Below are positions 1,762 to 18,054 of a stretch of 21,641 bases of DNA, piece by piece; position 1 is the stretch's first letter, and every line of letters begins with the position of its first letter. The DNA comes from Candidatus Sumerlaeota bacterium. Its GTDB lineage: Bacteria > Sumerlaeota > Sumerlaeia > JAFGJS01. The stretch is from the NCBI GenBank assembly GCA_016928995.1, contig JAFGJS010000143.1, forward strand, positions 1 to 21,641. The letters are read 5' to 3'. The notes under the pieces are model-generated. The model did not search any database and was not told the DNA's origin. It was given only the letters and a program-made list of their open reading frames with translations. The position numbers were made by a program, and so were the translations under genes.

Positions 1762-1833
1762 ATGAGTGAGGCCATTGAAGGTTTTAGGTGGGCTGCGGGA
1801 ATTATCGCCATCGCCGAAATACTGGACCTTTAA
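1762..1833 (+). CDS. 23-residue peptide directly upstream of the integrase
   Basis: ATG at 1762 opens a 23-codon frame beginning MSEAIEGFRWAAG, with a hydrophobic end IIAIAEILDL, closed by TAA at 1831-1833. It has the best ribosome binding site in this part of the window, GGAGAGGGG at 1751-1759. Its stop lies two bases before the integrase ATG at 1836, which has no Shine-Dalgarno of its own. The likely role is a translated leader that brings ribosomes to the integrase by coupling. It could also be a tiny excisionase-like or regulatory peptide. No family is recognisable at this length. Confidence 0.5.
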   Translation: MSEAIEGFRWAAGIIAIAEILDL

Positions 1834-1835
1834 GT

Positions 1836-2819
1836 ATGCCCTCTGCATTTAAATCCACCAACGGCCAATGGATCGCAGACTTCCGTGGCTTGCACATGAC
1901 CGGACGCCGGCGCCGACGGGTGCGCATTCCAACAGGGCATGCGCTCAAGCCCAAAGCCTATGCCAATGAATGCGAACGTCTTTGCCGGCTGCTTGAATAT
2001 CCGCCAACAGTCGAACAGCGCCTGATCGAAAAAGCCCTTACGCTCAAGGCGATCACTGCCGACCAGGCTGCGAGCCTTGATCAATTTCAAACTGCCGGCG
2101 AGCAACCGCGCTTCGTGGATTATTCGGAGCTCACGATTCGCGCGGCAGCCGATGCGCATCCGTCAACGCGGCGCGAGGCGGAACGCCAACGGCGAGACTA
2201 TGACAAAAGAATGAAGTACCTCGATAAGTTCATGGAGTGGGCCGGCATCACACTGGCTCGTGAGATCACACTCGACGCCGTCCAGCGCTGGGTGACCGAA
2301 CTGCGACGCAAAGGCTACGCCTGGGATACGCGACGGCACCATCTGGCATACATTCGACGCGCCGCTAAAATTGGAGCGACGCACGGCATGCCTGATCCTC
2401 TGGCCGGTTTCCGCCTCGACCACAACGACGATTATAAACCGATCCAAACTTGGCCATTGGATTCCATCCAGGACGCGCTGAAGCATCTTAAGGATGAGCG
2501 TTGCCGGGCGATCATTGGTCTTGGGATTGGAATGGGTCTCAGGCCGTCAGAGATCGTCCGCGTGATGTCTGATGATATTAAAAACGGCATATTGACAGTC
2601 GGCTCCCGTGAACGAAAAAATAAAGCTTCAATTCGCCGATTGCCGGTTCCTCAAGTCGTGCTCGGTTGGCTGAAGCCGTTAAAAAAATCGGATTGCCCAT
2701 TGATACGCACGCAGCGCCCTGGCGCAAAAAAAATGAGTGTGCTTTCAGCCATGATATTTTATGCGCCTGGTGGAAAGAGAAATTGGCCGAACCGTTGGAC
2801 GACGATGGCAAGAGATTGA
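1836..2819 (+). pseudogene. tyrosine recombinase (integrase), N-terminal part before a -1 frameshift
   Basis: The frame begins MPSAFKSTNGQWIADFRG, an N-terminal strand region with a basic RRRRRVRIP stretch. A helical SAM-like core-binding domain follows (about residues 90-190). The start of the catalytic domain includes GMGLRPSEIVRV with the catalytic Arg236 and SRERKNKASIRRLPVP with Lys261. After about residue 280 the frame leaves the family pattern and stops at 2819. The rest of the catalytic domain continues in the -1 frame (to 3055), so joined the protein would be about 405 residues, normal for the family. I use the ATG at 1836, coupled to the peptide ending at 1833. A GTG at 1788 would overlap that peptide. 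Either the gene is broken, or it uses programmed -1 frameshifting, or one A is missing in the assembly. Confidence 0.75.
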
Positions 2820-3055
2820 TTGAGCATGCGCCGATCGTACGCATGCGAAAAACATTCGTGGCCATCCTTGATGAAGGCGGTCTATCAGGGCGGTTGATCG
2901 ATGCGTATATGGGCCATGCTGTGCGTGATTTTGAGCAGGTCACGAGAGGGCACTATTTGCCCAAGACAGCCATTGATCGTTTACGGCCTGTAGCCGCTTT
3001 TATGGACGAGTTTCTACACAGTATTTCTACAGGCGTTTTTGAAAGGTCGAAGTAG
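2666..3055 (+). pseudogene. tyrosine recombinase (integrase), C-terminal catalytic part in the -1 frame
   Basis: This frame carries the rest of the recombinase catalytic domain. IVRMRKTFVAIL contains the second catalytic Arg, YMGHAVRDFEQ has the GH box, and QVTRGHYLPK holds the nucleophilic Tyr. The His of the usual HxxR box is Val here, although RKTF after the Arg is typical. The frame has no convincing start of its own (a TTG at 2666 without ribosome binding site), so it should be read as the continuation of the gene from 1836. The switch must occur between 2666 and 2819, most likely at the runs of seven A (2681-2687) or eight A (2726-2733). The gene ends 35 bases before the 3' end of tRNA-Leu, the usual position of a tRNA-targeting integrase. 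Confidence 0.75.
2681..2733 (+). other. two A-runs in the phase of a -1 slippery heptamer within the integrase
   Basis: In the zero frame both runs read A-AAA-AAA: 2681-2687 (codons at 2682 and 2685) and 2726-2732 (codons at 2727 and 2730, followed by ATG). Both are X-XXY-YYZ heptamers in correct phase for the observed -1 change. Homopolymers are also where sequencing and replication indels occur, so the sequence alone cannot separate recoding from mutation. Confidence 0.5.
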
Positions 3056-3090: not shown

Positions 3091-3125
3091 TGGTGCCGAG
3101 GGCCGGAATCGAACCGGCACGAGGC
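3091..3125. other. probable attachment site of the integrative element (tRNA-Leu 3' part)
   Basis: Tyrosine recombinases often integrate into the 3' part of a tRNA gene, leaving the tRNA intact at one end and a short copy at the other. Here a recombinase gene ends 35 bases from the intact CCA end of tRNA-Leu. I found no second copy of the tRNA 3' sequence inside the window, so the core length cannot be fixed and the other end must lie to the left of position 1. Confidence 0.45.
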
Positions 3126-3179
3126 GTAAGCCCCAAGGGATTTTAAGTCCCTCGCGTCTACCAATTCCGCCACCCCGGC
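3091..3179 (-). tRNA. tRNA-Leu (anticodon TAA)
   Basis: The minus strand folds as a class II tRNA. Acceptor GCCGGGG (3179-3173) pairs with CCTCGGC, with discriminator A and an encoded CCA (3093-3091). The anticodon stem AGGGA/TCCCT encloses CTTAAAA, giving TAA. A long variable arm (TGGGGCTTACGCCTC region) and a T-loop GGTTCGATTCC follow. The length is 89 bases with CCA. Its 3' end faces the integrase gene, so the last 20-40 bases (from 3091) are the probable attachment core of the element on the left. Confidence 0.96.
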
Positions 3180-3260
3180 AGAGGGTTGCTGGCGAGTCCG
3201 GCTGGCGGAGCAGTTTGCGCGGAGGGCGGCGATGCGCCGTTGGCCGGCCGGAGATGAAAA

Positions 3261-3335
3261 TGGAGGTGGCGACCGGATTCGAACCGGTGAATGACGGTTT
3301 TGCAGACCGTTCCCTTACCACTTGGGTACGCCACC
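3261..3335 (-). tRNA. tRNA-Cys (anticodon GCA)
   Basis: On the minus strand acceptor GGTGGCG (3335-3329) pairs with CGCCACC. The discriminator is T, as is typical for tRNA-Cys, and CCA is encoded at 3263-3261. The anticodon stem ACGGT/ACCGT encloses CTGCAAA, giving GCA, and the T-arm is CCGGTTCGAATCCGG. It lies 81 bases upstream of tRNA-Leu on the same strand, and the two are probably transcribed together. Confidence 0.96.
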
Positions 3336-3642: not shown

Positions 3643-4680
3643 GTGATGAAAAAAAAGAATGTGACGATCAAGGACATCGCGGAGCAGGCGCGCACATCAG
3701 TGGCGACGGTCTCGCGCGTGTTGAGCGAGAAGCCGGGCGTTGTGGAGAAGAAACGGGAATTGATCCAGAGGCTTGTCAGCGAGATGGGCTATGAGCCGAA
3801 TCGCAATGCGCAAAATCTGGCGGGATGCCGGACCAATTTGCTGGGCTTTATCACTTCGGATCTGAAAAATCCCTGGAAGGTGGATTTGATGCGGCGGATG
3901 GAGCAGTTTTGCCGCGAGCGGGGCAAACAGATTCTCGTCGCAAATTCGGCCATGCGTTTGGATTTGGAGCAGGAAAACATCAAGATCATGCAGCAGAACC
4001 GGGTGGAAGGTTTGATCATCTTCCCCGTGTCGGAATGGAAGGAACAAGAGGGCGATGATCACTTGTTGACGCTGAAGGCGCGGCGTTATCCTTTTATCCT
4101 GATGGGCCGCCTGGAGGACGAAGGTTTTGACATTGTCTGCAACGATGACATCGACGCCGGCCGTTGTTTGGCCAGGCGATTGATCGAATGGGGGCATCGC
4201 CGTATTTTGCTTTGCGGCCGTGCGATCCATATGCGCCGTTCTAACCGCAATAAGCGTTTGGGCGTCGAGATGGCGTTAAGAGAGGCGGGGCTGTCGCCAG
4301 AGGAGTCGCTGATGACGCTCAATATGGCCGAGGAGAACTGGACTGAAGAATTGCTGCGTTTGCAGCGGCAGGCAGAACGTCCCACGGCGTGCATCGTGGT
4401 GAATAGCGAACGGGCGCTTGAAATCTACCATGCGTTGCTTCAGGCGAAGATCCGGATTCCAGAGGATTGTTCGCTCGGTTGTTTTGACGATAATCTTTGG
4501 TGCAAGCACTTGGTTCCGCCGTTGACCTTGATGACGGCGGATGATGAGCAATTGGCGCAAGCGGCGTTCGATGCGTTGAGCGAACGCATGGACCATCCGG
4601 AGAAACCGCGAATCCGGCGGCTGCTGCCGATGCGCTACGTCGAGCGGGAATCATGCGGTCCGGCTCCTGCGGCGCGATGA
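3643..4680 (+). CDS. LacI-family transcriptional regulator
   Basis: A one-gene regulator of 345 residues, normal for the family. Residues 7-27 (VTIKDIAEQARTSVATVSRV) are the LacI helix-turn-helix. The hinge follows as NRNAQNLAG with its Leu-Ala pair at about residue 60. The remainder is a periplasmic-binding-protein-like effector domain (GFITSDLKNPW, VEGLIIFPVSEW, FILMGRLEDEGFDIVCNDD, GHRRILLCG, GCFDDN). GAGGGGG at 3626-3632 favours GTG at 3643 (10 bases away); an ATG follows at 3646. The stop TGA overlaps the ATG at 4677 of the solute-binding/permease gene (ATGA), so regulator and transporter are co-transcribed and translationally coupled. The effector is presumably the imported sugar or a derivative, and its identity cannot be read from the sequence. 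Confidence 0.93.
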   Translation: MMKKKNVTIKDIAEQARTSVATVSRVLSEKPGVVEKKRELIQRLVSEMGYEPNRNAQNLAGCRTNLLGFITSDLKNPWKVDLMRRMEQFCRERGKQILVANSAMRLDLEQENIKIMQQNRVEGLIIFPVSEWKEQEGDDHLLTLKARRYPFILMGRLEDEGFDIVCNDDIDAGRCLARRLIEWGHRRILLCGRAIHMRRSNRNKRLGVEMALREAGLSPEESLMTLNMAEENWTEELLRLQRQAERPTACIVVNSERALEIYHALLQAKIRIPEDCSLGCFDDNLWCKHLVPPLTLMTADDEQLAQAAFDALSERMDHPEKPRIRRLLPMRYVERESCGPAPAAR

Positions 4681-7412
4681 GGCGCTGGGCGCTGATCCTG
4701 CTGTGGTGCGCGCTGGGCAGCCTTGCTCATTCAGGAGAAATTTACGAACGCGACGGCAAGACGGTGATCCGCATCGTCGTGGACCGCTTGCCGGATCCCA
4801 CCAACACCGCCACCTTCAACCGCGCCGAGGCCGCCGCCGTCAGCGCGTTTATCGAGCAATTCCCGCAAATCTTCGCCGAACGCTATCGCGATCAATATCG
4901 GGCGAATCCCGAGAAATACGGCCGTTTCGACTGGGATCATGTTGAAGTGGAGCCGGTGCGTTTCAGCGGAATCACCGTCGAAGGAGTGGAGACCGATCTG
5001 CTGGCCATTGCCGGCGGCATGCCTCCCGACGTGCTCTACGTCAATTTTCGCAAGTCCGACAACTATATCCGCAACGGCTTCCTCTATCCGCTGGATAAAT
5101 CCGAGGACGGCTATGTCTCCGGCATGAGCGACGCGGCGCTGGCGCAACGGGTGAATCCCAAGATCTGGCCGGTGATTCGCTGCAAAGGTCCGGCTGGCGA
5201 GAAGCATGTATGGGCGCTGCCCTATGGCGGCGCGCTGGGCAAGGTGCTGCTGTATCGCAAGGATCTGTTTGATCTCAACGGCGTGCCGTATCCTGACAAG
5301 GAATGGACCTGGGATGACATGCTCGCCGCGTGTCGCAAGTTGACCGATCCAGCCAAGGGCACCTATGGTCTGCTGCTGACGCGCGCCAAGGATGAGTCGT
5401 GGTGGTGGGTTACGTTTCTCTGGTCGGCGGGCGGCGAGGCGATGGTCTATGACGAGGCGTCCGACCAATGGCGTTGCGCGTTCGATTCGGATGAGGCCGC
5501 TGTCGCGCTTGATTTTTACACGCGCCTGAGCACGGAAAAATGGACCGGCGCGGACGGCAAGCTTCATCGCGGCTACAGCACGAAGGACGCGGCGGATTTA
5601 GGCTCGAAGTGGGAGCGCGGCGAGATCGGCATGCGCTTCGATTACGTGGACGGCAAGCTGTTCTCGCGGATCAATCCTGAGGTCGTGGGGATGTGCCCCG
5701 TGCCGAAAGGTCCAACGGGGATTCGCGGCGCGGAGTTGAACAGCCGGATGATGGGCCTGTTTTCGCGCATCGAGCATCCAGCTGTGCGCGACGCCGCCTG
5801 GGAATATATCCGTTTCTTCGAAAGCGAAGAGGCGCTGCAAATCAAAACGCGGATCATGGTCGAGGGCGGCTTGGGCAAGTATTTCAACCCGGAGTTGCTG
5901 GAGCGTTTCGGCTACAAGGAATTCAGCCGTCTTTCGCCCAAGGGCTGGGCGGAGAATTTCCGCATCGCCATCGAGACGGGCAAGCCTGAGCCGTATGGCC
6001 GCAACAGCAATGTGATTTACGATGTGATGACGCGGCCGATTCATCTGGCTGAACAACTGGCGCTGAACGACGAATTGCCGGAAGATCCGGATGCGCGGCT
6101 GGCGGTGATGAAGGGCTTGCTCGAACAATGGAACGCGCGGGCGAATGAGATCATGATCGGCGCTGTCCCGCCGAAGGAACGCTCTAAGCGGCGAGCGGCC
6201 GCATTATTCGCGCTGCTGCTGATCGCCGTCGCTTTCGGTTTTGCCTTCCGGCGCGTGATGCGCGCGTTTCAGCCGCCGGAGGCGCCGGGCGTCGCGCAAC
6301 TCAAGTGGGGCTTCCGCAAGTACGCCTGGGCGTATGTCTTGCTGCTGCCCGCGGCGCTGACGATCCTGGTCTGGCAATACGCGCCGCTGGCGTATGGATC
6401 GGGCATGGCTTTCTTCGATTATAAGCTGCTGGGCGATTCCGCCTGGACGGGTTTGGATAACTTTGGCGATGTGCTGTTCGATGGCGAATGGTGGCGGGCG
6501 GTGTGGAACGCCGTGCGCTATAGCTTTTTGGTGATGGCGCTGACCTTTCTGCCGCCGATTGCGCTGGCGATTCTGCTGCAGGAGGCGCCGTATGGGCGGC
6601 TGATTTTCCGCACGATTTATTATCTTCCGGCGGTGATCACCGGGCTGGTGACTGCGCTGCTGTGGAAGCAATTTTACGAGCCGTCGGAGAGCGGCGCGCT
6701 GAACAGCATCGTGCTGCAGATCCCCGCCATTGGTTACCTCATCATCGGCGCGATGCTTTTAGGGATCGCGCTGATGTTCGCGCGACGGCTTTGGCGACAT
6801 GAACTACGCGGCGCATCGCTCGGTTTCGCTGTGGCGGGCTTGCTGTTGCTCTACACCGCGTTGCGCATCACCGCGCCAATCTTTTTACACAGCGGCGAGA
6901 CATTGTTCGAGGCGCTGCCGCATTGGCCGGGGCGGCTGTTCGAGTGCATGCCGGAGCCGTTGCGCTGGCTGGGCAATCCAGAGACATCGATGCTGGCTTG
7001 CGTGATGCCGATGGTCTGGGCCGGCATGGGGCCGGGTTGCCTGATCTATCTCGCCGCGTTGAAAGGCATTCCGGATGAAATCTACGAGTCCGCCGACATC
7101 GACGGCGGCACGTTCATCGACAAAATCATCTTCATCGTCTTTCCGATGCTCAAGGCGCTGATCCTGATCAATTTCATCGGCGCGTTCATCGGCTCGGTCT
7201 ACGCCGCAACGGGTCACATTCTCGTCATGACCGGCGGCGCGGCGAACACCGAGGTGGCCGGGCTGCATATCTGGTACCAGGCGTTCACGCACCTGCGCTT
7301 CGGACCGGCCACGGCGATGGCCTGGCTGCTGGGCTTTATGCTGATCGGCTTCACCATGAATCAACTGCGCATTCTATCGCGCGTGGAATTCAAGACGACG
7401 GGGGAGAAGTAA
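4677..7412 (+). CDS. fusion of extracellular solute-binding protein and MalF-type ABC permease
   Basis: This 911-residue protein joins two normally separate subunits of a CUT1-type sugar importer. A signal peptide (MRRWALILLWCALGSLAHS) precedes a family-1 solute-binding domain at about residues 25-490 (AGGMPPDVLYVNF, WALPYGGALGKVLLYRKDLF, EWTWDDMLAACRKLTDP). Membrane segment 506-525, a short linker and a MalF-like permease from about 545 follow, with EAA loop IYESADIDGGTFIDKIIFIV at 802-821. Segment 506-525 brings the chain back to the cytoplasm, so both halves keep their proper sides. Two further hydrophobic segments (about 684-702 and 712-735) precede a large loop inside the permease. The ATG at 4677 is preferred over 4653 because it overlaps the regulator stop. 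No lipobox is seen; tethering by fusion makes one unnecessary. Confidence 0.92.
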   Translation: MRRWALILLWCALGSLAHSGEIYERDGKTVIRIVVDRLPDPTNTATFNRAEAAAVSAFIEQFPQIFAERYRDQYRANPEKYGRFDWDHVEVEPVRFSGITVEGVETDLLAIAGGMPPDVLYVNFRKSDNYIRNGFLYPLDKSEDGYVSGMSDAALAQRVNPKIWPVIRCKGPAGEKHVWALPYGGALGKVLLYRKDLFDLNGVPYPDKEWTWDDMLAACRKLTDPAKGTYGLLLTRAKDESWWWVTFLWSAGGEAMVYDEASDQWRCAFDSDEAAVALDFYTRLSTEKWTGADGKLHRGYSTKDAADLGSKWERGEIGMRFDYVDGKLFSRINPEVVGMCPVPKGPTGIRGAELNSRMMGLFSRIEHPAVRDAAWEYIRFFESEEALQIKTRIMVEGGLGKYFNPELLERFGYKEFSRLSPKGWAENFRIAIETGKPEPYGRNSNVIYDVMTRPIHLAEQLALNDELPEDPDARLAVMKGLLEQWNARANEIMIGAVPPKERSKRRAAALFALLLIAVAFGFAFRRVMRAFQPPEAPGVAQLKWGFRKYAWAYVLLLPAALTILVWQYAPLAYGSGMAFFDYKLLGDSAWTGLDNFGDVLFDGEWWRAVWNAVRYSFLVMALTFLPPIALAILLQEAPYGRLIFRTIYYLPAVITGLVTALLWKQFYEPSESGALNSIVLQIPAIGYLIIGAMLLGIALMFARRLWRHELRGASLGFAVAGLLLLYTALRITAPIFLHSGETLFEALPHWPGRLFECMPEPLRWLGNPETSMLACVMPMVWAGMGPGCLIYLAALKGIPDEIYESADIDGGTFIDKIIFIVFPMLKALILINFIGAFIGSVYAATGHILVMTGGAANTEVAGLHIWYQAFTHLRFGPATAMAWLLGFMLIGFTMNQLRILSRVEFKTTGEK

Positions 7413-7413
7413 G

Positions 7414-9330
7414 ATGCCGATCCTATCCCCAGTCGGACGCAAATCGTTCAAGGCGCGCGCGCTGATGATCGGCATGTATCTCTTGCTCTGCGCGGGCGCA
7501 ACCACGATGCTGTATCCCTTTTTGCTGATGATTTCCGGCAGCACGAAGAGCGCGGTAGACGCGGCGGAGAACCGGCTCATCCCGTCGTACCTGTCTGATG
7601 ATGCGGCGTTGTATCGCAAGCATATCGAGGCGTTTTTCAACGAGTCGTTCGAGCAGATGCAGATGGCGTATGAAACGGACGCTGTTTCGTTTCAACGGCT
7701 TGAGCCGCCGGAGAAAATCAACGAGGCATTGATTCAGGAATGGAAGTCCTTTCTGGGGGAGGCGGATTTGCCGGCATGGACTTCAGCAGCGAGCAGCATT
7801 CGCGCGCCGGTTTCCGCTGGGACGTTGCCGAAAAATCTACGCGCCTTCAAGCGGGAGTTAATCGCACGTTTCGGCAACCGCATCGAAGATCTGAACCGCG
7901 CGCTGCGCACGAATTTCGTCAATTGGAACGCCTTCTGGATTCTGCCGGAAAATTATCTGCAGCGCGTGGAGACGCCGGAGGACGATCCGTTCGCCGTGGC
8001 GCATCGTGAGTTCAAGTTAAGCCTGCCTGCCGTCGAACGCTATTACTTCATCGCGGAAGGCTATTACAAGACGGCGTACCTGCAAACGCAATACACGCGC
8101 GACATCGGAAATTATAATACGCAGCATGGAACTGCATCTGCCTCGTGGGATGACGTGCATTTGCCACGCCGTGCGCCGGATGTAAGCGCGGCGCCGCTGG
8201 AGCGTGAGGATTGGGAGCATTTCACGCGCGACGTGCTGAATGTGCTTTGGCTGCGGTTGGACGCCTCGGCGGCGCCAGCATATCGAGAATATCTGCGTGC
8301 GAAATACCAAAACGATATCGCGATATTTAATGAAAAATACGATGTGAATATTTCGGCTTTCGATCAAGCGCCGCTGCCCGCGACAGCGCCGGGCGAAGGA
8401 CTGGCGCGCGTTGATTGGGAATCGTTTCTGCAGGGATGGCTGGATCCGGACACGCAAATCATGCATTTGGCGCCGCTGGAGGCGATCCGCATCGAGAGCG
8501 TTGAATTTCAATTTCAGGATTTTCTGAAAAACAAATATGGCGATGTGCTAGCGGCAAACACCGCATTGCATACCGAGTGGCGTGATTGGCGCGACGCCCT
8601 GCCGCCGCAACAGGCATGGCATTATCAGCATTTTCGCAGCGCGACCGGCGCCTTGCGACTTGAATTTTCCACGCGTAACTTCGCGGCGGTGCTTGATTAC
8701 GTCGCGCTGCATGGGCGCGGCATCCTCAACACAGTAGTCTATTGCCTGCTGGCGATTCTGGCGGCGCTGATCGTCAATCCGCTTGCGGCTTACGCGCTCA
8801 GCCGCTACAAGCCGCCGTCGGCGTACAAAATGCTGATGTTCCTCATGCTCACGATGGCCTTTCCGCCGATGGTGACGCAGATTCCGGTGTTCCTGATGCT
8901 GCGCGGTTTCGGGCTGCTCAACACGTACTGGGCGCTGATCCTGCCGGGGCTGGCGAACGGCTACGCGATCTTTCTGCTCAAGGGCTTCTTCGATTCGCTG
9001 CCGCAGGAACTGTATGAAAGCGCGGCGATCGACGGCGCGGGCGAGTTCCGCGTGTTCTGGCAGATCACGATGAGCCTGAGCCAGCCGATCCTCGCCGTGA
9101 TCGCGCTCAACGCCTTCACGCAAGCGTACTCGAACTTCATCATGGCGATGCTGATCTGCCAGGACGAAAAAATGTGGACCTTGATGCCGTGGCTGTATCA
9201 GCTGCAATCGCGCAGCGGCCCCGGCGTGATTTACGCCTCCCTGATTATCGCTGCGATCCCTACGTTTCTGGTGTTTGCCTTTTGCCAGAACATCATCATG
9301 CGCGGCATCGTCGTGCCGGTGGAGAAGTGA
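7414..9330 (+). CDS. MalG-type ABC permease with a large repeat-containing insertion
   Basis: A 638-residue permease, about 280 being usual. Residues 17-40 form the first membrane segment. The remaining segments start at about 437 and include the EAA loop LYESAAIDGAGEFRVFWQIT (533-552) and a typical MalG ending IIMRGIVVPVEK. Between them lie about 380 residues (45-428) predicted to be outside the membrane, built from five degenerate copies of a motif (about 66-114, 143-205, 218-278, 289-341, 366-415). Clear examples are YREYLRAKYQNDIAIFNEKY and FQDFLKNKYGDVLAANTALH, each followed by a Trp or Phe and an LP. A similar [FY]L..KYG...LN..W pattern occurs in some glycoside hydrolases of the GH42 type, but catalytic acids cannot be assigned. 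The start follows the fusion gene by one base, with GGGGAG at 7401-7406. No ATPase gene follows. Confidence 0.92.
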   Translation: MPILSPVGRKSFKARALMIGMYLLLCAGATTMLYPFLLMISGSTKSAVDAAENRLIPSYLSDDAALYRKHIEAFFNESFEQMQMAYETDAVSFQRLEPPEKINEALIQEWKSFLGEADLPAWTSAASSIRAPVSAGTLPKNLRAFKRELIARFGNRIEDLNRALRTNFVNWNAFWILPENYLQRVETPEDDPFAVAHREFKLSLPAVERYYFIAEGYYKTAYLQTQYTRDIGNYNTQHGTASASWDDVHLPRRAPDVSAAPLEREDWEHFTRDVLNVLWLRLDASAAPAYREYLRAKYQNDIAIFNEKYDVNISAFDQAPLPATAPGEGLARVDWESFLQGWLDPDTQIMHLAPLEAIRIESVEFQFQDFLKNKYGDVLAANTALHTEWRDWRDALPPQQAWHYQHFRSATGALRLEFSTRNFAAVLDYVALHGRGILNTVVYCLLAILAALIVNPLAAYALSRYKPPSAYKMLMFLMLTMAFPPMVTQIPVFLMLRGFGLLNTYWALILPGLANGYAIFLLKGFFDSLPQELYESAAIDGAGEFRVFWQITMSLSQPILAVIALNAFTQAYSNFIMAMLICQDEKMWTLMPWLYQLQSRSGPGVIYASLIIAAIPTFLVFAFCQNIIMRGIVVPVEK

Positions 9331-9340
9331 TGACCAACAT

Positions 9341-9399
9341 AACGCAAAGACGCGAAGGCGCAAAGATGCGCAACGAAATACTTTGCGTATCTTTGCGCC
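9341..9399. repeat. dispersed repeat copy 1 with a 17-bp hairpin
   Basis: AACGCAAAGACGCGAAGG (9341-9358) is repeated at 10605-10622. Bases 9357-9373 (GGCGCAAAGATGCGCAA) pair with 9383-9399 around a 9-base loop, one pair being G-T. It lies 10 bases after the permease stop codon, so as RNA it could end or protect the transport operon message. No U-run follows, which argues against a standard terminator. Elements of this 'cgcaaagacgc' type are familiar as intergenic repeats in environmental genomes. Confidence 0.65.
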
Positions 9400-10604: not shown

Positions 10605-10634
10605 AACGCAAAGACGCGAAGGTGCGCAACGAAA
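10605..10634. repeat. dispersed repeat copy 2
   Basis: AACGCAAAGACGCGAAGG (10605-10622) followed by TGCGCAACGAAA (10623-10634) matches copy 1 except that eight bases (CGCAAAGA) between the two blocks are missing. GCGCAA here and TTGCGC near 10649-10654 can pair. It is in the same orientation as copy 1 and again lies just after a stop codon. Confidence 0.7.
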
Positions 10635-10819: not shown

Positions 10820-12238
10820 ATGCCTCAAACTCGTTGGATCAGCCTCTGTCTTTCAATCCTCCTGTATGGATTGTGCGTATTGCAGTCCGATGTGCAAGCG
10901 GCGCCGGCCAGCGAAACGGCGATGCTGCTGAAGAATGTGATCCTGTTTATCTCCGACGGCTGCGGCTATAATCACGTCGAGGCTGCTTCGTATTATCGCA
11001 GCGGAACGCCGGATAGTTTTTCCTTTCAACAGTTTCCGCTGCAAATCGGGATGAGCACCTACAATATCCACGGCAGTTATGATCCGGAAACGGCCTGTAC
11101 TTCGATGACCTATGTGCAAAACAATCCGACCGAATCAGGCGCGTCGGGCGCCGCCATCGCTTGCGGCAGGAAGACCTATTCGGGGGCGATCGGCATGATC
11201 GGCCACAGCAGCGCTGATGCGGTCCGGGCGCGATCCGTCGTCGAGCACGCCGAATGGCAGGGCATGGCCACTGGTGTCGCGACCTCAGTGCAATTTTCCC
11301 ACGCCACGGCGGCCAGCTTCGCCGCGCATAATGTGTCGCGCTATAACTACGAGGCCATCGCCCGCGAGATGCTGACGAGCAGCACGCTTGACGTGATCAT
11401 CGGGTGCGGGCATCCGGGTTTCGATAACGACGGGCAGACGACGGCCAGCGTCGAGTTTAAATATGCCGGCGGCGAGGAGACCTGGTTGGCGCTGCTCGCT
11501 GGCGAGCTGGCGGTCAGCGATGCGGATCGGGATCATCAGCCGGACGCCTGGAGTCTCGTTGAGTCGCGGGATGATTTTCAGTCGCTGGCTGCTGGACAGA
11601 ATCTGCCCAAGCGTCTGCTGGGGATTCCGCAAACGCACCTTACGCTGCAACAACGCCGTAGCGGCGGAAATGTGCAAGTTCCTTATGCCGACGCATTAAC
11701 GACAAGCGTGCCGACGTTGAGCGAGATCACAATGGCGGCGATCAATGTTCTGGAGCAGGATACGGACGGTTTCTTCCTGATGGTCGAAGGCGGCGCAGTC
11801 GATTGGGCCAGCCACTCCAACCAGAGCGGACGCATGATCGAGGAGGAACTGGAGTTCGCCGACGCTGTCTCCTCCGCCGTCGTTTGGGTGGCTGACCATG
11901 GCGGCTGGGAGCAAACGTTGATCGTCGTCACCGGCGATCACGAATGCGGCTATCTCACCGGTCCGGCGAACAGTGGAACGGTCGAGGAACAACTGCAAAT
12001 CGTTGGCGGCGCGCCGGGAGAAGTCCCGCAGATGCAGTGGCGCCTGACAGCGCATACCAACTCGCTGGTTCCGCTTTACGCCAATGGGCCGGAATCCGTG
12101 CTTCAGCAGTTGCTCGACATGGCCGACGAAGAAGATCCTATCCGCGGCTCCTACATCGATAACGCTGAATTGGGCGCCGCTCTGATCGACATCATTCCAC
12201 TCAAACCACCAACCGCCGCAACGATAACGATTTGGTAA
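10820..12238 (+). CDS. secreted alkaline phosphatase (PhoA superfamily)
   Basis: A 472-residue phosphomonoesterase with signal peptide (MPQTRWISLCLSILLYGLCV, likely cut after VQA at about 27). Active-site residues fall almost at the E. coli PhoA numbers: Asp46 (LFISDGCG), nucleophile Ser106 (PTESGASGAA), His161 and Thr163 (FSHATAASFAAH), Arg174 (VSRYNYE), Glu323, Asp328 and His332 (MVEGGAVDWASH), Asp373-His374 (VTGDHECG) and His412 (TAHTNS). Two-zinc phosphate-ester hydrolysis in the periplasm or outside is therefore expected. The Asp before the nucleophile is Glu here. The PhoA Asp153 position is His, as in many other bacterial and animal enzymes. No anchor is seen at the C-terminus. The gene has its own promoter and no co-transcribed partner. 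Confidence 0.92.
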   Translation: MPQTRWISLCLSILLYGLCVLQSDVQAAPASETAMLLKNVILFISDGCGYNHVEAASYYRSGTPDSFSFQQFPLQIGMSTYNIHGSYDPETACTSMTYVQNNPTESGASGAAIACGRKTYSGAIGMIGHSSADAVRARSVVEHAEWQGMATGVATSVQFSHATAASFAAHNVSRYNYEAIAREMLTSSTLDVIIGCGHPGFDNDGQTTASVEFKYAGGEETWLALLAGELAVSDADRDHQPDAWSLVESRDDFQSLAAGQNLPKRLLGIPQTHLTLQQRRSGGNVQVPYADALTTSVPTLSEITMAAINVLEQDTDGFFLMVEGGAVDWASHSNQSGRMIEEELEFADAVSSAVVWVADHGGWEQTLIVVTGDHECGYLTGPANSGTVEEQLQIVGGAPGEVPQMQWRLTAHTNSLVPLYANGPESVLQQLLDMADEEDPIRGSYIDNAELGAALIDIIPLKPPTAATITIW

Positions 12239-12690: not shown

Positions 12691-15600
12691 GTGATGAAAC
12701 GATTTTCAATCGTCTTTGCCGTCATCGTTCTAGGCGCAAGCCCGATATGGACGGCCCCTCAAGTGCAACTTACCACCGGCGATGTGATGTTCGATGCTTC
12801 GCCTTTTGTCGTTGACGACGCGCTTTCGGTCGTTGCAACCAGCGCGACATTAACCAGCGCCGTGGTGACTCTTTGGGATTTTCCGGACGGACCGCAAGAG
12901 TCGCTCAGCGCGTCGGCGTCAGGCGCCATCACAGGGGGTGATATTGTCTGGAGCTCTCCCTCGCTGCAGATTACAGCAACGGCTCCCGTGGCCGATTACC
13001 AGGCCGTGCTGCGCTCGGTGGTGTACGTCAACGCGGCCGGGACGCCCACCGCCGGCTTGCGGCGCGTCCAGTTTCGCATCTCCGACGGCAGTGAAGCCGG
13101 ACAGGGCAATGTGCGCGCCATCGGCATCGACTTCGCCTACGGCGCGGGCGATTCGGTGATTAATGAATTGCACTACGATCCGCTGGACAAGACCACTCCG
13201 TGGGAATTCATCGAGATTTACAACGCGGGCGCGGAGGCGATCGATCTTTCTGATTGGTATTTCTCCAACGGCGTTGATTATACCTTTCCATCCGGAGCGA
13301 TGCTGCTGCCAGGATCTTATGCTGTCGTAGCTCAGGATCCCGACGAGCTGCTGGCGCAATTCGGCGTGTCGTCCTACGGGCCGTTCACGGGCAAACTCTC
13401 CAACGACGGCGAGCAGGTGATGCTGCGAGATGCAGCCGGCTTCAAGCGGGACGAGGTGACGTATCAGGGGAATTTCCCCTGGCCCTGCGGATCGCATGGC
13501 GGCGGGCAGTCGATGGAGTTGATCCGGCCGGACTTGGATAATGATCTGGCGGGCAACTGGCGTCCCAGCGGCGGATACATTCCATACGACTCGATATCGG
13601 AATCCGGCGACGAAGATGTGACAGGCGGCGGCGACGGCGTGGACGGAACGGCTTCGGCCAGTTCGGAATATGGCGCTCCGTGGTATGAACTGGCTGTGAA
13701 CGCTTTTGACAACGATACTGGGACGCCCTGGACGACGACCGGTGGATTTCCTCAATGGCTGCAGTTTGAATTGGATGAAGCAAAGTCCATTGATGGCTAT
13801 TCGCTGGAAAGCAGGAGCGCCATGACGGCAAGGGTTCCCAGCGACTTCACGATTGAAGGCTCTAATGACGGTTCGATTTGGACTGTGCTCGACACCGTAA
13901 CGGGACATAGCGGAACGGCTAAAACGATCTTCAGCATCCCAAGGACCGACGCATACAAATTTTATCGGATCTATATCACGGCCAACAATGGCGATTCGCT
14001 GGTGGATCTTGCGGAGATGGAATTTCTGTCTTCAGTCGAGGAAAATGCCACACCCGGCGCACAAAATAGCGTTTATACCACGTCGATTCCACCGCGCCTG
14101 CGGCAGGTGGATCATTCGCCGAATGAGCCCGAAGCGAGCGAGCCGATGGTGATCACGGTCAAAGCGACGGATCCCGATGGCGTGGCCAGCGTGACGCTGC
14201 ATTACCAACCTGTGGATCCGGGCAGTTATATCCGGCTGTCCGATGCGGCGTATGAGACGACTTGGACGGACGTGGCGATGAATGACGCGGGATTGGACGG
14301 CGATGAAACCGCGGGCGATGACGTTTTCAGCGTGACGCTGCCCGGTACGATCCAGACGCATCGCCGCCTGGTGCGTTATCGCATCACGGCGGAGGACGGC
14401 GTGGGCGATTCGATCACGGCGCCGTTTCCTGATGATCCGACGCCGAATTTCGCCTATTTCGTTTATAACGGCGTGCCGGAATGGAGCGGCGCGATCAATC
14501 CCGGCGGCTCAGCGCCGGAGAATGTAGCAGTGACGTTCACTACAGATACATTAACCTCGTTGCCGGTGTATCATTTGATCGCGACGAATGCGGACGTCCT
14601 GGCCTGCCAGTACACTGGTCCTTACGCTGATGGGCTTTATCGCTATGAGGGCACGCTGGTTTATGATGGCGACGTTTACGACCACGTCCGCTTCAGGATC
14701 AAAGGCGCCGCATCCACGCGTGTATGGGGCAAGAACAAATGGAAATTTAATTTCCCGCGCACCAATCGATTCAAAGCGCGGGATAATTACGGTCATCGCT
14801 ACAACACCCTATGGGATAAACTCGTTGTCTCCACGGGAACCTGTCCCTGGTGGAAGTATCCGCATCCCGACGGATTCTGGGATCAAGGCACGGGCGGCAT
14901 GTACTGGAATGAAGCGCTTGGAATGCGTTTCTTTCAATTGGCCGGCGTGCCGGCGTCCAACACGCATTATTTTCATTTCCGGGTGATCGATGACGCTGTT
15001 GAAGCCGATCCTATTGATCAGTACGAAGGCGATTTCTGGGGCATGTATCTCGCCATCGAGCAACCGGACGGCCGGTTTCTCGATGAACGCGAATTGCCTG
15101 ATGGCAATGTTTATAAAAACGACGGCGCAGATTCGCACTATACCAATCAAGGCCCGGCACAGGTCACTGACATGTCGGATTACAATGCGTTTGTCAGCAG
15201 TTCGACCGGCTACAACAAGACTGGTCCGATTCAACCCCTGAGCTGGTGGCAGAACAATATCAATCTCGATGAATATTATCGTCAGAATGCCGTGTCGATG
15301 CTGATCAATAATTCCGACCGGCGGGCGGAGCCAGCGTTCAACTACTTGTATTACCATCACCCGGAGACCGGTCTGTGGTGGATGATCCCGTGGGATTTGG
15401 ATTTATCTTTCGAATACGGAGGGCACTATGCCTTTCCGCCTGCGGATCAAGAGCACTGGTACTATATCATTGATACCACCGCCGGTTATGCCGGCGAACG
15501 AATCAAATACGCCAATGTCGCGCGCGAATTGGGGGATTTGCTCTTTAACTCTGACGAGGGCGCCCGCCTGATCGACGAATATTTTGCGTTCATCTATCAA

Positions 15601-18054
15601 TCCGGCGGCCAGTCGTTCGCGGACGCCGACCGGGCGCAATGGGAATTCCATCCGCGAGTCGCCGCCGCCAGCGGCGGGAAATATCTGGACGCTTATTTTG
15701 CGAGAAACGAGTACCTGACATCGCAGGACTGGGACGGACTCAAAGCCTACTATAAGCAGTACATCACATCCGCAGGCTTCGGTTCGGTTTATGGCGGCGG
15801 CAAATTAGCCGCCGACGCGGCGGACGCCGATATTCCCAGCACGCCGGCGATCACCTACACCGGCGGCGCCGGATATCCATTGAATGACTTGTCGTTTGAA
15901 TGCTCTGCCTTCGCCGATCCGCAAGGCGCGGGAACCTTCGCCGCGATGAAATGGCGCATCGGCGAAATCAGCGTGCCCGGTTCGCCGTCATTCGAGCCGG
16001 ATGAGCCGCAGAAGTATGAGGTTCAGGCGATCTGGGAGAGCGAGGAAATCACGACCTTCGACAATTCAATCCTCATCCCGGCGGACGGCCTGGAGGTCGC
16101 TCATATTTATCGTGTGCGCGTGAAGATGAAGGATGCCACCGGCCGCTACAGCCATTGGTCGGAGCCGGTTGAGTTCACCGCGGGCGATCCGGACACCCAG
16201 GCGCAGTTGGCGCTCAGCCTGCGCGTAAGCGAGGTGATGTACAATCCGCCGGGCGACGATGATTACGAGTTCATCGAGCTTTACAACAGCAGCGAGTCGA
16301 CTGCCGTGGAGTTCAACGGCGAGATTTTCACCGGCGGCATCGACTTTACCATGCCGGCCGGGACGCTGATTCCGCCTGGCGGCTATCTTCTCGTCTCGCG
16401 CGACAGCACGACGGACTTCGCGAATTTCCGCGCTCATTACGGGCTGGACACAAGCGTTCCCATCGTGGGGCCGTATAGCGGAAAACTCAGCAATGACGGC
16501 GAGCGGGTGGAGCTCAGCCGCAACTCGGGCGGCGCCAAGCTGTTCGCATTCGAGTATAACGACTCGCGCGGCTGGCCGCTGCCCGCCGATGGCTCGGGGC
16601 ATTCGATGGTTCCGGTCAACATCGCCACACAGCCGGAAAACTCGCTGGACTACTGCGGCAACTGGCGCTCCAGCACGTACATCGACGGTTCGCCTGGCGA
16701 GGCGGATCCCACACCGCCCCAGACAGTCGTGCTGAATGAGGTTGTGGCTCATACAGATGTCAACGCTCCGCCGTATGACTCGAACGACTCCATTGAACTG
16801 CTTAACACGACGGACACAGTAGTGAACTTCACGGACTGGTATTTGACGGATGATCCTTCAGTTTTGGACAAATGGGCGATAGACAATTCGCAAGGATCGA
16901 TCCTCGCCGGACAATATCTTGTGCTCGACGAGATGAACGATTTCCACAATCCCATCACGGAAGGCTTCGGTTTGAGCAAATCCGGCGAGCAACTGCTGCT
17001 TTCGTATCTGCCAGGCACGTCCGAGGATCGCGTCGTGGATTGGGTGCGCTTCAAGGGTCAGGAAAACGGCCTGTCGCTCTCGCGTTATCCCGACGGCGAC
17101 GGTTATTGGCGCAATACGGCGATCACGACCGGCACGGCGAACTCCGCGCCGCTGGAGGACGTGGTGATCAGCGAGATCATGTATAATGCGGACGGCGAGG
17201 ACGATGGCATGGAGTTTATCGAACTCTATAATCTTTCATCCGCGCCGATTGAATTGTTCGAACTGATCGACGCGGTGAACGAACCGTGGCAGATCAACGG
17301 TTTTGACACGGATTATACGCTTCCTGCCGGCATCACGATCGCCGCGGGCGAACGGATTGTGCTGGTGAATTTCGATCCGTCGTCCGTTCCGGACCTTGCG
17401 GCGTTCGAGGCGCAGTACGGCGCTGTGACGGCGCGGATGTTCGGATCGCTGCCGGACAACCTGTCGAATTCCGTCCAGCGCGTGGCGCTGGAACGGCCGC
17501 AGCCTGCCGATCCGCCGGAGATTGATCCATCCTGGGTGATCGTGGACGAGGTGATCTACTTCGATCAAGCGCCCTGGACGCCGGACGCGGACGGAACCGG
17601 TTTGTCGCTGAACCGCGTAGAAGATAATGGCGCGGGACGCAACCCACAGAACTGGATCGCATTGACGCCGACGCCGGGCGAAGATCTGCCGTCGGTCAAT
17701 GTCGCGCTCTCCTCCCTGGACGTGACGCCAGGCGGCACGATATATTCCGGGACAGTGGAGATCCGGGCGACGTTCGCAGAAGCCGTTTCCGGATTTGACG
17801 CCAGCGATTGGATCACGACCGGCAACCTGGCCGTGCAACCCTTCAGTTTCTATGACGCGGGCGATGGAATGAACTATCGCATCAACGTCGCGCATACCGG
17901 TTACGGCGTCATGCAGATCGGTATTCCAGCCGGCGCTGCGGTTTCGACTGACGGCAGCGCGAGAAGCAACGCGGCGTCGAATGTGTTCTCATACACCTAC
18001 GTCGCCATGCCTATCGAAGACTCGACAAAGGTGTCCAACTGGTATTTATATTGA
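12691..18054 (+). CDS. giant secreted protein: lamin-tail domains, discoidin-like domain, CotH-type kinase
   Basis: 1787 residues with a signal peptide (to about residue 22). Order: cadherin/Ig-like module (23-150); lamin-tail domain 1 (155-295, WEFIEIYNAG); F5/8 type C (discoidin) domain (310-447); Ig-like domain (465-590); CotH-type protein kinase (595-1030); FnIII-like module (1050-1165); lamin-tail domains 2 (1177-1340, YEFIELYNSS), 3 (1345-1485) and 4 (1490-1665, MEFIELYNLS); a C-terminal Ig-like module. The CotH part shows RIKGAASTRVWGKNKWKF (nucleotide-side lysines), GMYLAIEQPDGRF, NNSDRRAEPAFNYLYY (Asp876) and IPWDLDLSF (Asp902, Asp904), as expected of active members. CotH of Bacillus phosphorylates spore-coat proteins; the bacterial substrate here is unknown. 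The discoidin domain interrupts the tail of lamin-tail domain 1. No anchor, dockerin or sorting motif ends the protein (SNWYLY). Confidence 0.9.
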   Translation: MMKRFSIVFAVIVLGASPIWTAPQVQLTTGDVMFDASPFVVDDALSVVATSATLTSAVVTLWDFPDGPQESLSASASGAITGGDIVWSSPSLQITATAPVADYQAVLRSVVYVNAAGTPTAGLRRVQFRISDGSEAGQGNVRAIGIDFAYGAGDSVINELHYDPLDKTTPWEFIEIYNAGAEAIDLSDWYFSNGVDYTFPSGAMLLPGSYAVVAQDPDELLAQFGVSSYGPFTGKLSNDGEQVMLRDAAGFKRDEVTYQGNFPWPCGSHGGGQSMELIRPDLDNDLAGNWRPSGGYIPYDSISESGDEDVTGGGDGVDGTASASSEYGAPWYELAVNAFDNDTGTPWTTTGGFPQWLQFELDEAKSIDGYSLESRSAMTARVPSDFTIEGSNDGSIWTVLDTVTGHSGTAKTIFSIPRTDAYKFYRIYITANNGDSLVDLAEMEFLSSVEENATPGAQNSVYTTSIPPRLRQVDHSPNEPEASEPMVITVKATDPDGVASVTLHYQPVDPGSYIRLSDAAYETTWTDVAMNDAGLDGDETAGDDVFSVTLPGTIQTHRRLVRYRITAEDGVGDSITAPFPDDPTPNFAYFVYNGVPEWSGAINPGGSAPENVAVTFTTDTLTSLPVYHLIATNADVLACQYTGPYADGLYRYEGTLVYDGDVYDHVRFRIKGAASTRVWGKNKWKFNFPRTNRFKARDNYGHRYNTLWDKLVVSTGTCPWWKYPHPDGFWDQGTGGMYWNEALGMRFFQLAGVPASNTHYFHFRVIDDAVEADPIDQYEGDFWGMYLAIEQPDGRFLDERELPDGNVYKNDGADSHYTNQGPAQVTDMSDYNAFVSSSTGYNKTGPIQPLSWWQNNINLDEYYRQNAVSMLINNSDRRAEPAFNYLYYHHPETGLWWMIPWDLDLSFEYGGHYAFPPADQEHWYYIIDTTAGYAGERIKYANVARELGDLLFNSDEGARLIDEYFAFIYQSGGQSFADADRAQWEFHPRVAAASGGKYLDAYFARNEYLTSQDWDGLKAYYKQYITSAGFGSVYGGGKLAADAADADIPSTPAITYTGGAGYPLNDLSFECSAFADPQGAGTFAAMKWRIGEISVPGSPSFEPDEPQKYEVQAIWESEEITTFDNSILIPADGLEVAHIYRVRVKMKDATGRYSHWSEPVEFTAGDPDTQAQLALSLRVSEVMYNPPGDDDYEFIELYNSSESTAVEFNGEIFTGGIDFTMPAGTLIPPGGYLLVSRDSTTDFANFRAHYGLDTSVPIVGPYSGKLSNDGERVELSRNSGGAKLFAFEYNDSRGWPLPADGSGHSMVPVNIATQPENSLDYCGNWRSSTYIDGSPGEADPTPPQTVVLNEVVAHTDVNAPPYDSNDSIELLNTTDTVVNFTDWYLTDDPSVLDKWAIDNSQGSILAGQYLVLDEMNDFHNPITEGFGLSKSGEQLLLSYLPGTSEDRVVDWVRFKGQENGLSLSRYPDGDGYWRNTAITTGTANSAPLEDVVISEIMYNADGEDDGMEFIELYNLSSAPIELFELIDAVNEPWQINGFDTDYTLPAGITIAAGERIVLVNFDPSSVPDLAAFEAQYGAVTARMFGSLPDNLSNSVQRVALERPQPADPPEIDPSWVIVDEVIYFDQAPWTPDADGTGLSLNRVEDNGAGRNPQNWIALTPTPGEDLPSVNVALSSLDVTPGGTIYSGTVEIRATFAEAVSGFDASDWITTGNLAVQPFSFYDAGDGMNYRINVAHTGYGVMQIGIPAGAAVSTDGSARSNAASNVFSYTYVAMPIEDSTKVSNWYLY

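Follow-up and report, generated by a model that had tools for sequence, protein, structure and literature searches.

The MalG-type permease encoded at 7414..9330, on the forward strand of a 21,641-bp stretch of DNA from Candidatus Sumerlaeota analysed here in full (the window), carries between its first two transmembrane (TM) helices a large insert composed of five tandem repeat units. From sequence and structural model together, we read the unit as truly homologous to an element of clan GH-A glycoside hydrolases. The insert was retrieved from numerous phyla and was tied to one subfamily of fusions between a solute-binding protein (SBP) and MalF.

Transporter genes and the five-unit insert

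The 638-residue product is assigned to the CUT1 permeases on the basis of its BPD_transp_1 domain (residues 458-630, E 1.4e-13; 51.4 bits against a Pfam cut-off of 26.4), also matched by 61 of 61 homologues, and of matches to UgpE/MalG models. Its AlphaFold2 model superposed on MalG (3puv_G: Z 19.6, rmsd 3.4, 262 aligned, model residues 14-638), in agreement with an earlier note, made from the window's sequence, that placed the insertion in a MalG-type permease, after TM1 and before TM2. Immediately before the gene lies that of a 919-residue SBP-MalF fusion (4653..7412, forward strand; SBP_bac_1, E 5e-23; UgpA/GlcT/MalF-type permease models at 770-909), the sequence of which reads as a signal peptide, a solute-binding domain, one linking TM helix and a MalF-type permease. 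Over positions 4653-4680 the start of this fusion overlaps the 3' end of a LacI-type regulator gene (3643..4680, forward strand; Pfam LacI and Peripla_BP_3), and these two genes likely form one operon. The SBP and the MalF partner are thus encoded together, and a single OB_MalK ATPase is present in the genome (G000:C61), encoded separately from the transporter genes. The system would be a sugar importer of CUT1 type; its SBP resembles malto-, arabino-oligosaccharide and sorbitol binders (E 4e-12 to 2e-9). Neighbouring genes of the homologous loci, in which a clue to the substrate was sought, were diverse, each family being represented at most 4 times among the 104 neighbours.

Some additional features of the window may be mentioned. 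A seeming extra pair of TM helices was noticed in the MalF part of the fusion (residues about 700-770), without counterpart in divergent homologues, whose matches were split at 165|250. Downstream of the transporter lie a secreted-looking alkaline phosphatase (10820-12238; Pfam E 7e-47) and a 1787-residue protein (12691-18054) in which four lamin-tail stretches are combined with a CotH kinase domain and an F5/8 type C domain. The repeat CGCAAAGACGCGAAGG, of which only three exact copies occur genome-wide, is found at 9343-9358 and 10607-10622, in both intergenic gaps around a TPR gene. Upstream, two overlapping ORFs in different frames (1788-3055) read like a broken tyrosine recombinase, neither piece having any match in Pfam, and adjoin a tRNA-Leu and a tRNA-Cys (3091-3335).

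The TM1-TM2 region of the permease comprises about 383 residues and was correctly delimited in the earlier note (7546-8698, i.e. residues 45-428). That note spoke of 380 inserted residues; the insertion is indeed large, but its net gain over a MalG of about 300 residues amounts to about 340, since about 40-55 residues at this place make up the periplasmic loop that an ordinary MalG has anyway. TM helix 1 (residues 12-42, 7447..7539, by AlphaFold2/DSSP) is followed, on the same forward strand and with a period of about 75 residues, by unit 1 (residues 59-115, 7588..7758), unit 2 (138-201, 7825..8016), unit 3 (209-272, 8038..8229), unit 4 (280-341, 8251..8436) and unit 5 (359-408, 8488..8637), which scored 52, 55, 68, 61 and 50 bits, respectively, against a unit profile. 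These match the five stretches listed in the earlier note (66-114, 143-205, 218-278, 289-341 and 366-415). The remainder of MalG (8644..9327, forward strand) contains a pre-TM2 helix, TM2 onwards and the EAA loop, with AlphaFold2/DSSP helices from residue 411 and the BPD_transp_1 domain. Unit 1 is the most divergent from the shared motif and contains the invariant residues E72 and N76, while a conserved tryptophan (W110, W267, W335) is located within a dW..F helix motif.

The existence of five repeat units was borne out by four independent approaches. Self-comparison of the column profile, in which no unit boundaries were used, yielded offsets of 71-78, 145-152, 221-225 and 299, with a best score of 33.5 against a maximum of 10.5 in 200 column shuffles. 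All ten unit-versus-unit hhalign pairs scored 33-95 (shuffled maximum 17), and shuffled proteins reached at best 1.9 bits against the unit profile, which was built from eight sequences including that of the window and of which the remaining proteins are independent. A chance likeness of the five stretches is ruled out by these shuffle controls. The fourth approach was AlphaFold2 modelling with 58-61 homologues: the whole permease was predicted with a pLDDT of 89.7, and the insert alone, modelled without templates (pLDDT 95.9, pTM 0.92), displayed five repeated blocks of the form H(~13)-H(8)-turn-H(~13)-E(3). The topology of MalG, together with the basic N-terminus, would place the insert on the periplasmic side. 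A PDB fold search with the whole insert returned matches spanning about one unit, none of them at E <= 0.001, which is no proof of a new fold.

Relation to clan GH-A hydrolases

The resemblance to GH42-like hydrolases pointed out in the earlier note was recovered by Pfam, by comparison of the unit profile with the PDB and by superposition of single units, all three in agreement. Pfam Glyco_hydro_42 (PF02449) matched the permease with 33.3 bits (cut-off 21), a sum of weak matches of which none passes E 0.01 alone; the best of them lies in unit 3 (residues 221-276, profile positions 156-214 of 376). The same family was matched by 50 of 61 homologues. When the unit profile was run against 177,635 PDB sequences, matches were almost exclusively to clan GH-A, to which we take the matched enzymes to belong; among them were GH42 1kwg (152-196, E 7.5e-8), beta-1,2-glucosyltransferase 7vkx, beta-amylase 3voc, beta-agarase 4bq2 and GH167 9whd. 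A PDB search with the insert as a single sequence gave nothing notable. Elsewhere in the window's class, the unit was found in GH42/agarase-type hydrolases in all seven cases examined. Single units superposed on GH-A enzymes at 1.6-3.0 A, with 1.6 A over 56 residues for 5gsm and over 62 residues for 6ptm; the insert model scored Z values up to 7.7 over one unit, which taken alone are within the common range and agree with the sequence results.

GH-A hydrolases (GH42, GH14 and others) contain the unit once, as one local segment. A capture from a hydrolase, as put forward in the earlier note, is plausible, although the element may also have moved the other way. It is worth noting that the permease itself is no member of GH42 or of clan GH-A, since the best match covers only about 60 profile positions and no (beta/alpha)8 barrel with two catalytic Glu was found, the model being built from five helical units whose strands are at most 3 residues long. 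With no barrel in either the Pfam match or the model, an enzymatic function of the insert is ruled out. In a Pfam GH42 search across the whole genome the permease was not among the matches, because no single stretch scores high enough. Automatic annotation may be misled by a beta-galactosidase match that lies over the cut-off on a permease gene.

Distribution and association with the SBP-MalF fusion

A scan of GTDB genomes fetched 65 loci with the insert, distributed over Lentisphaerota, Kiritimatiellota, Verrucomicrobiota, Planctomycetota, Armatimonadota, Sumerlaeota, Latescibacterota and others, and a misassembly or single-genome oddity is ruled out by these loci in other genomes. Carriers include named strains or finished genomes such as Oligosphaera ethanolica DSM 24202 and Planctomycetes bacterium syqfu. 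Most homologues were 38-52% identical over the full insert and a divergent group 23-30%. According to the unit profile, 51 proteins have exactly five units, at positions that hardly vary, the divergent group having mostly three or four detectable units. Such a fixed number and near-fixed spacing in many phyla argue that the whole array is under selection. The search in Sumerlaeota was phylum-wide and covered 40 genomes; within the class to which the window belongs, the insert was confined to 3 of 39 genomes. A quickly built tree for the core of the permease implied that the phylum label changed 19 times where 8 would have sufficed, so that transfer, paralogy and mislabelled bins are all possible, and the window permease was placed, with modest support, near Armatimonadota and an unnamed MAG. 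MalGs of the G006 type showed a TM-like insertion of about 57 residues further on in the core.

Upstream of the insert-bearing malG, an SBP of one and the same subfamily was encoded in 55 of the 65 loci. Among the other ten, three retain only the MalF end at the contig edge (L022, L042, L071), two begin too close to the contig end for an upstream SBP to be judged (L038, L054), and the genomes of six (L039, L050, L054, L056, L067, L074) have the fusion located elsewhere, as found in 6 of 6 genomes searched. Among the genomes of the window's class, this fusion subfamily was confined to the three that bear the insert, being split over two contigs in one of them (G036). In the second copy of the locus in Planctomycetes bacterium syqfu (L057:3028-5813), SBP and MalF were observed as two ORFs of 579 and 334 residues in place of a single fusion.

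More distant SBP-MalF fusions of other Sumerlaeota had different partners. Six of them (L147, L148, L153-L156) are paired with an ordinary MalG of about 300 residues, and three lie beside a MalG with an unrelated TM1-TM2 insert of about 320 residues (L149:5151-6920, reverse strand; L151:6480-8087 and L157:5382-7127, forward strand), in which Pfam found no match in the two that were scanned. The five-unit insert, being tied to one fusion subfamily while distant fusions pair with other MalGs, is thus subfamily-specific, and the unrelated inserts at the equal place indicate that MalG loop inserts arose more than once in an SBP-MalF setting. The existence of fusions with plain MalG rules out the SBP fusion as a sufficient cause of the insert. 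Among 44 adjacent single-ORF fusions, including that of the window, the divergence of the insert was correlated with that of the SBP (partial correlation of 0.30 with MalF and the MalG core accounted for, versus 0.03 between SBP and core), the pairs being non-independent so that no valid p-value can be attached to these figures.

Proposed function and comparison with known systems

By analogy with the P2 loop of MalF, the five-unit array may serve to hold the tethered SBP, an interpretation to which we give about an even chance. Sequence and model show the first periplasmic loop of MalG to be extended by five alpha-alpha-(turn)-alpha-beta elements of about 65 residues in tandem, which form a rigid array. 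This array would act as a scaffold rather than an enzyme and rise from the transporter into the periplasm. There it would hold or position the solute-binding domain that a single TM helix would tether to MalF, taking a role equivalent to that of the P2 loop for maltose-binding protein in E. coli, and the separately encoded MalK-type ATPase would power the importer. The P2 loop is reported to contact MalE in that organism (Daus et al. 2009, cited in PMC3328499). Among the functions put forward in the earlier note, docking of the fused SBP is the best backed, although still indirectly, by the constant co-occurrence, the constant number of units and the modest excess of co-divergence between insert and SBP. 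The confidently predicted fold, the position between TM1 and TM2, the net acidic, cysteine-free sequence of the window's insert and the single OB_MalK ATPase of the genome also speak for this reading. Against it, fusions paired with plain MalG imply that a tethered SBP needs no such insert, and two genes inherited together as one unit would co-occur for that reason alone. A broader proposal, namely that a new tandem-repeat domain made from a multiplied hydrolase-barrel element became obligate in an SBP-fused importer across phyla and guides glycans or the SBP in a mode unseen among CUT1 systems, must as a whole be considered doubtful.

Another possible explanation is that each unit binds an oligosaccharide or cell-wall glycan, either passing the substrate on to the SBP or anchoring the transporter. 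The likeness of the units to a GH element in both sequence and fold would suit such a role, as would the 13% aromatic residues of the insert. In GH42 enzymes, moreover, Trp-200 and Phe-221, located at helix tips of the corresponding region, reach the substrate of the neighbouring subunit (PMC10688820). Judging from its spacing to the acid/base Glu, this Trp-200 may correspond to W182 of 1kwg, which, counted along the unit-profile alignment, belongs to five residues (fwsqr) absent from the permease units. The sugar contact of the enzyme was therefore not carried over, and glycan binding as the earlier note had derived it from GH42 was not borne out. As the conserved tryptophans of the units probably sit in the core and no carbohydrate-binding module was recognised by Pfam among the homologues, we consider this explanation unlikely.

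A similarly low likelihood is attributed to the array as a spacer or anchor that sets a distance in the envelope or contacts the outer membrane, the S-layer or cell-wall factors, with no part in SBP docking. The unrelated inserts of L149, L151 and L157 and the one of about 500 residues in MalG of Thermotogales (PMC2246101) are in its favour, as such unlike additions indicate that the loop tolerates large inserts; the tight coupling to one SBP-MalF subfamily, however, points inward, to the transporter. That the insert is what remains, in degenerate form, of an entire hydrolase domain once captured and now kept as a neutral passenger, as the above-cut-off Glyco_hydro_42 match might suggest, is highly improbable and largely refuted by the conservation of five units across phyla (51 proteins), the best match covering about 60 of 376 profile positions of a unit present five times in a model without barrel.

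The earlier note knew of no described CUT1 permease built in this way. This holds for the repeat, since no paper on a five-unit GH-A-like repeat in MalG, on its spread or on its coupling to SBP-MalF was found in the literature searched. It does not hold for the place of insertion: a hydrophilic TM1-TM2 insert of about 500 residues was described in 2008 for MalG1 and MalG2 of Thermotogales, its function being unknown (PMC2246101). Both systems thus share a large insert between TM1 and TM2; that of Thermotogales, compared here by its description only, was reported to be without similarity to known proteins and is accompanied by a separate SBP gene (PMC2246101).

GH42 beta-galactosidases and further clan GH-A enzymes (1kwg, 6ptm, 5gsm, 4bq2, 3voc) share the unit at the E-values and rmsd given above. 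They contain it as a single element of a catalytic barrel, whereas the permease has five in tandem without barrel and without the Trp-bearing five-residue piece. The reuse of part of a catalytic barrel as a repeated element bears on the origin of repeat domains.

As in other SBP-fused importers (other Sumerlaeota SBP-MalF, OpuA-type), the binding domain of the window's system is covalently joined to the permease, the other Sumerlaeota fusions differing by a MalG that is ordinary or has an unrelated insert. MalFGK2 of E. coli and LpqY-SugABC of Mycobacterium are alike in the TM fold of MalG and in the EAA loop (Z 16-20 for the window model). Their MalG, however, has an ordinary short first periplasmic loop and their SBP is unfused; in E. 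coli it is MalF that supplies the large periplasmic domain, through its P2 loop, whereas in the window it is the five-unit loop of MalG, beside an SBP fused to MalF. This natural, conserved transporter, which has both an SBP and a large loop of MalG built in, makes it possible to test what periplasmic loops contribute to SBP docking.
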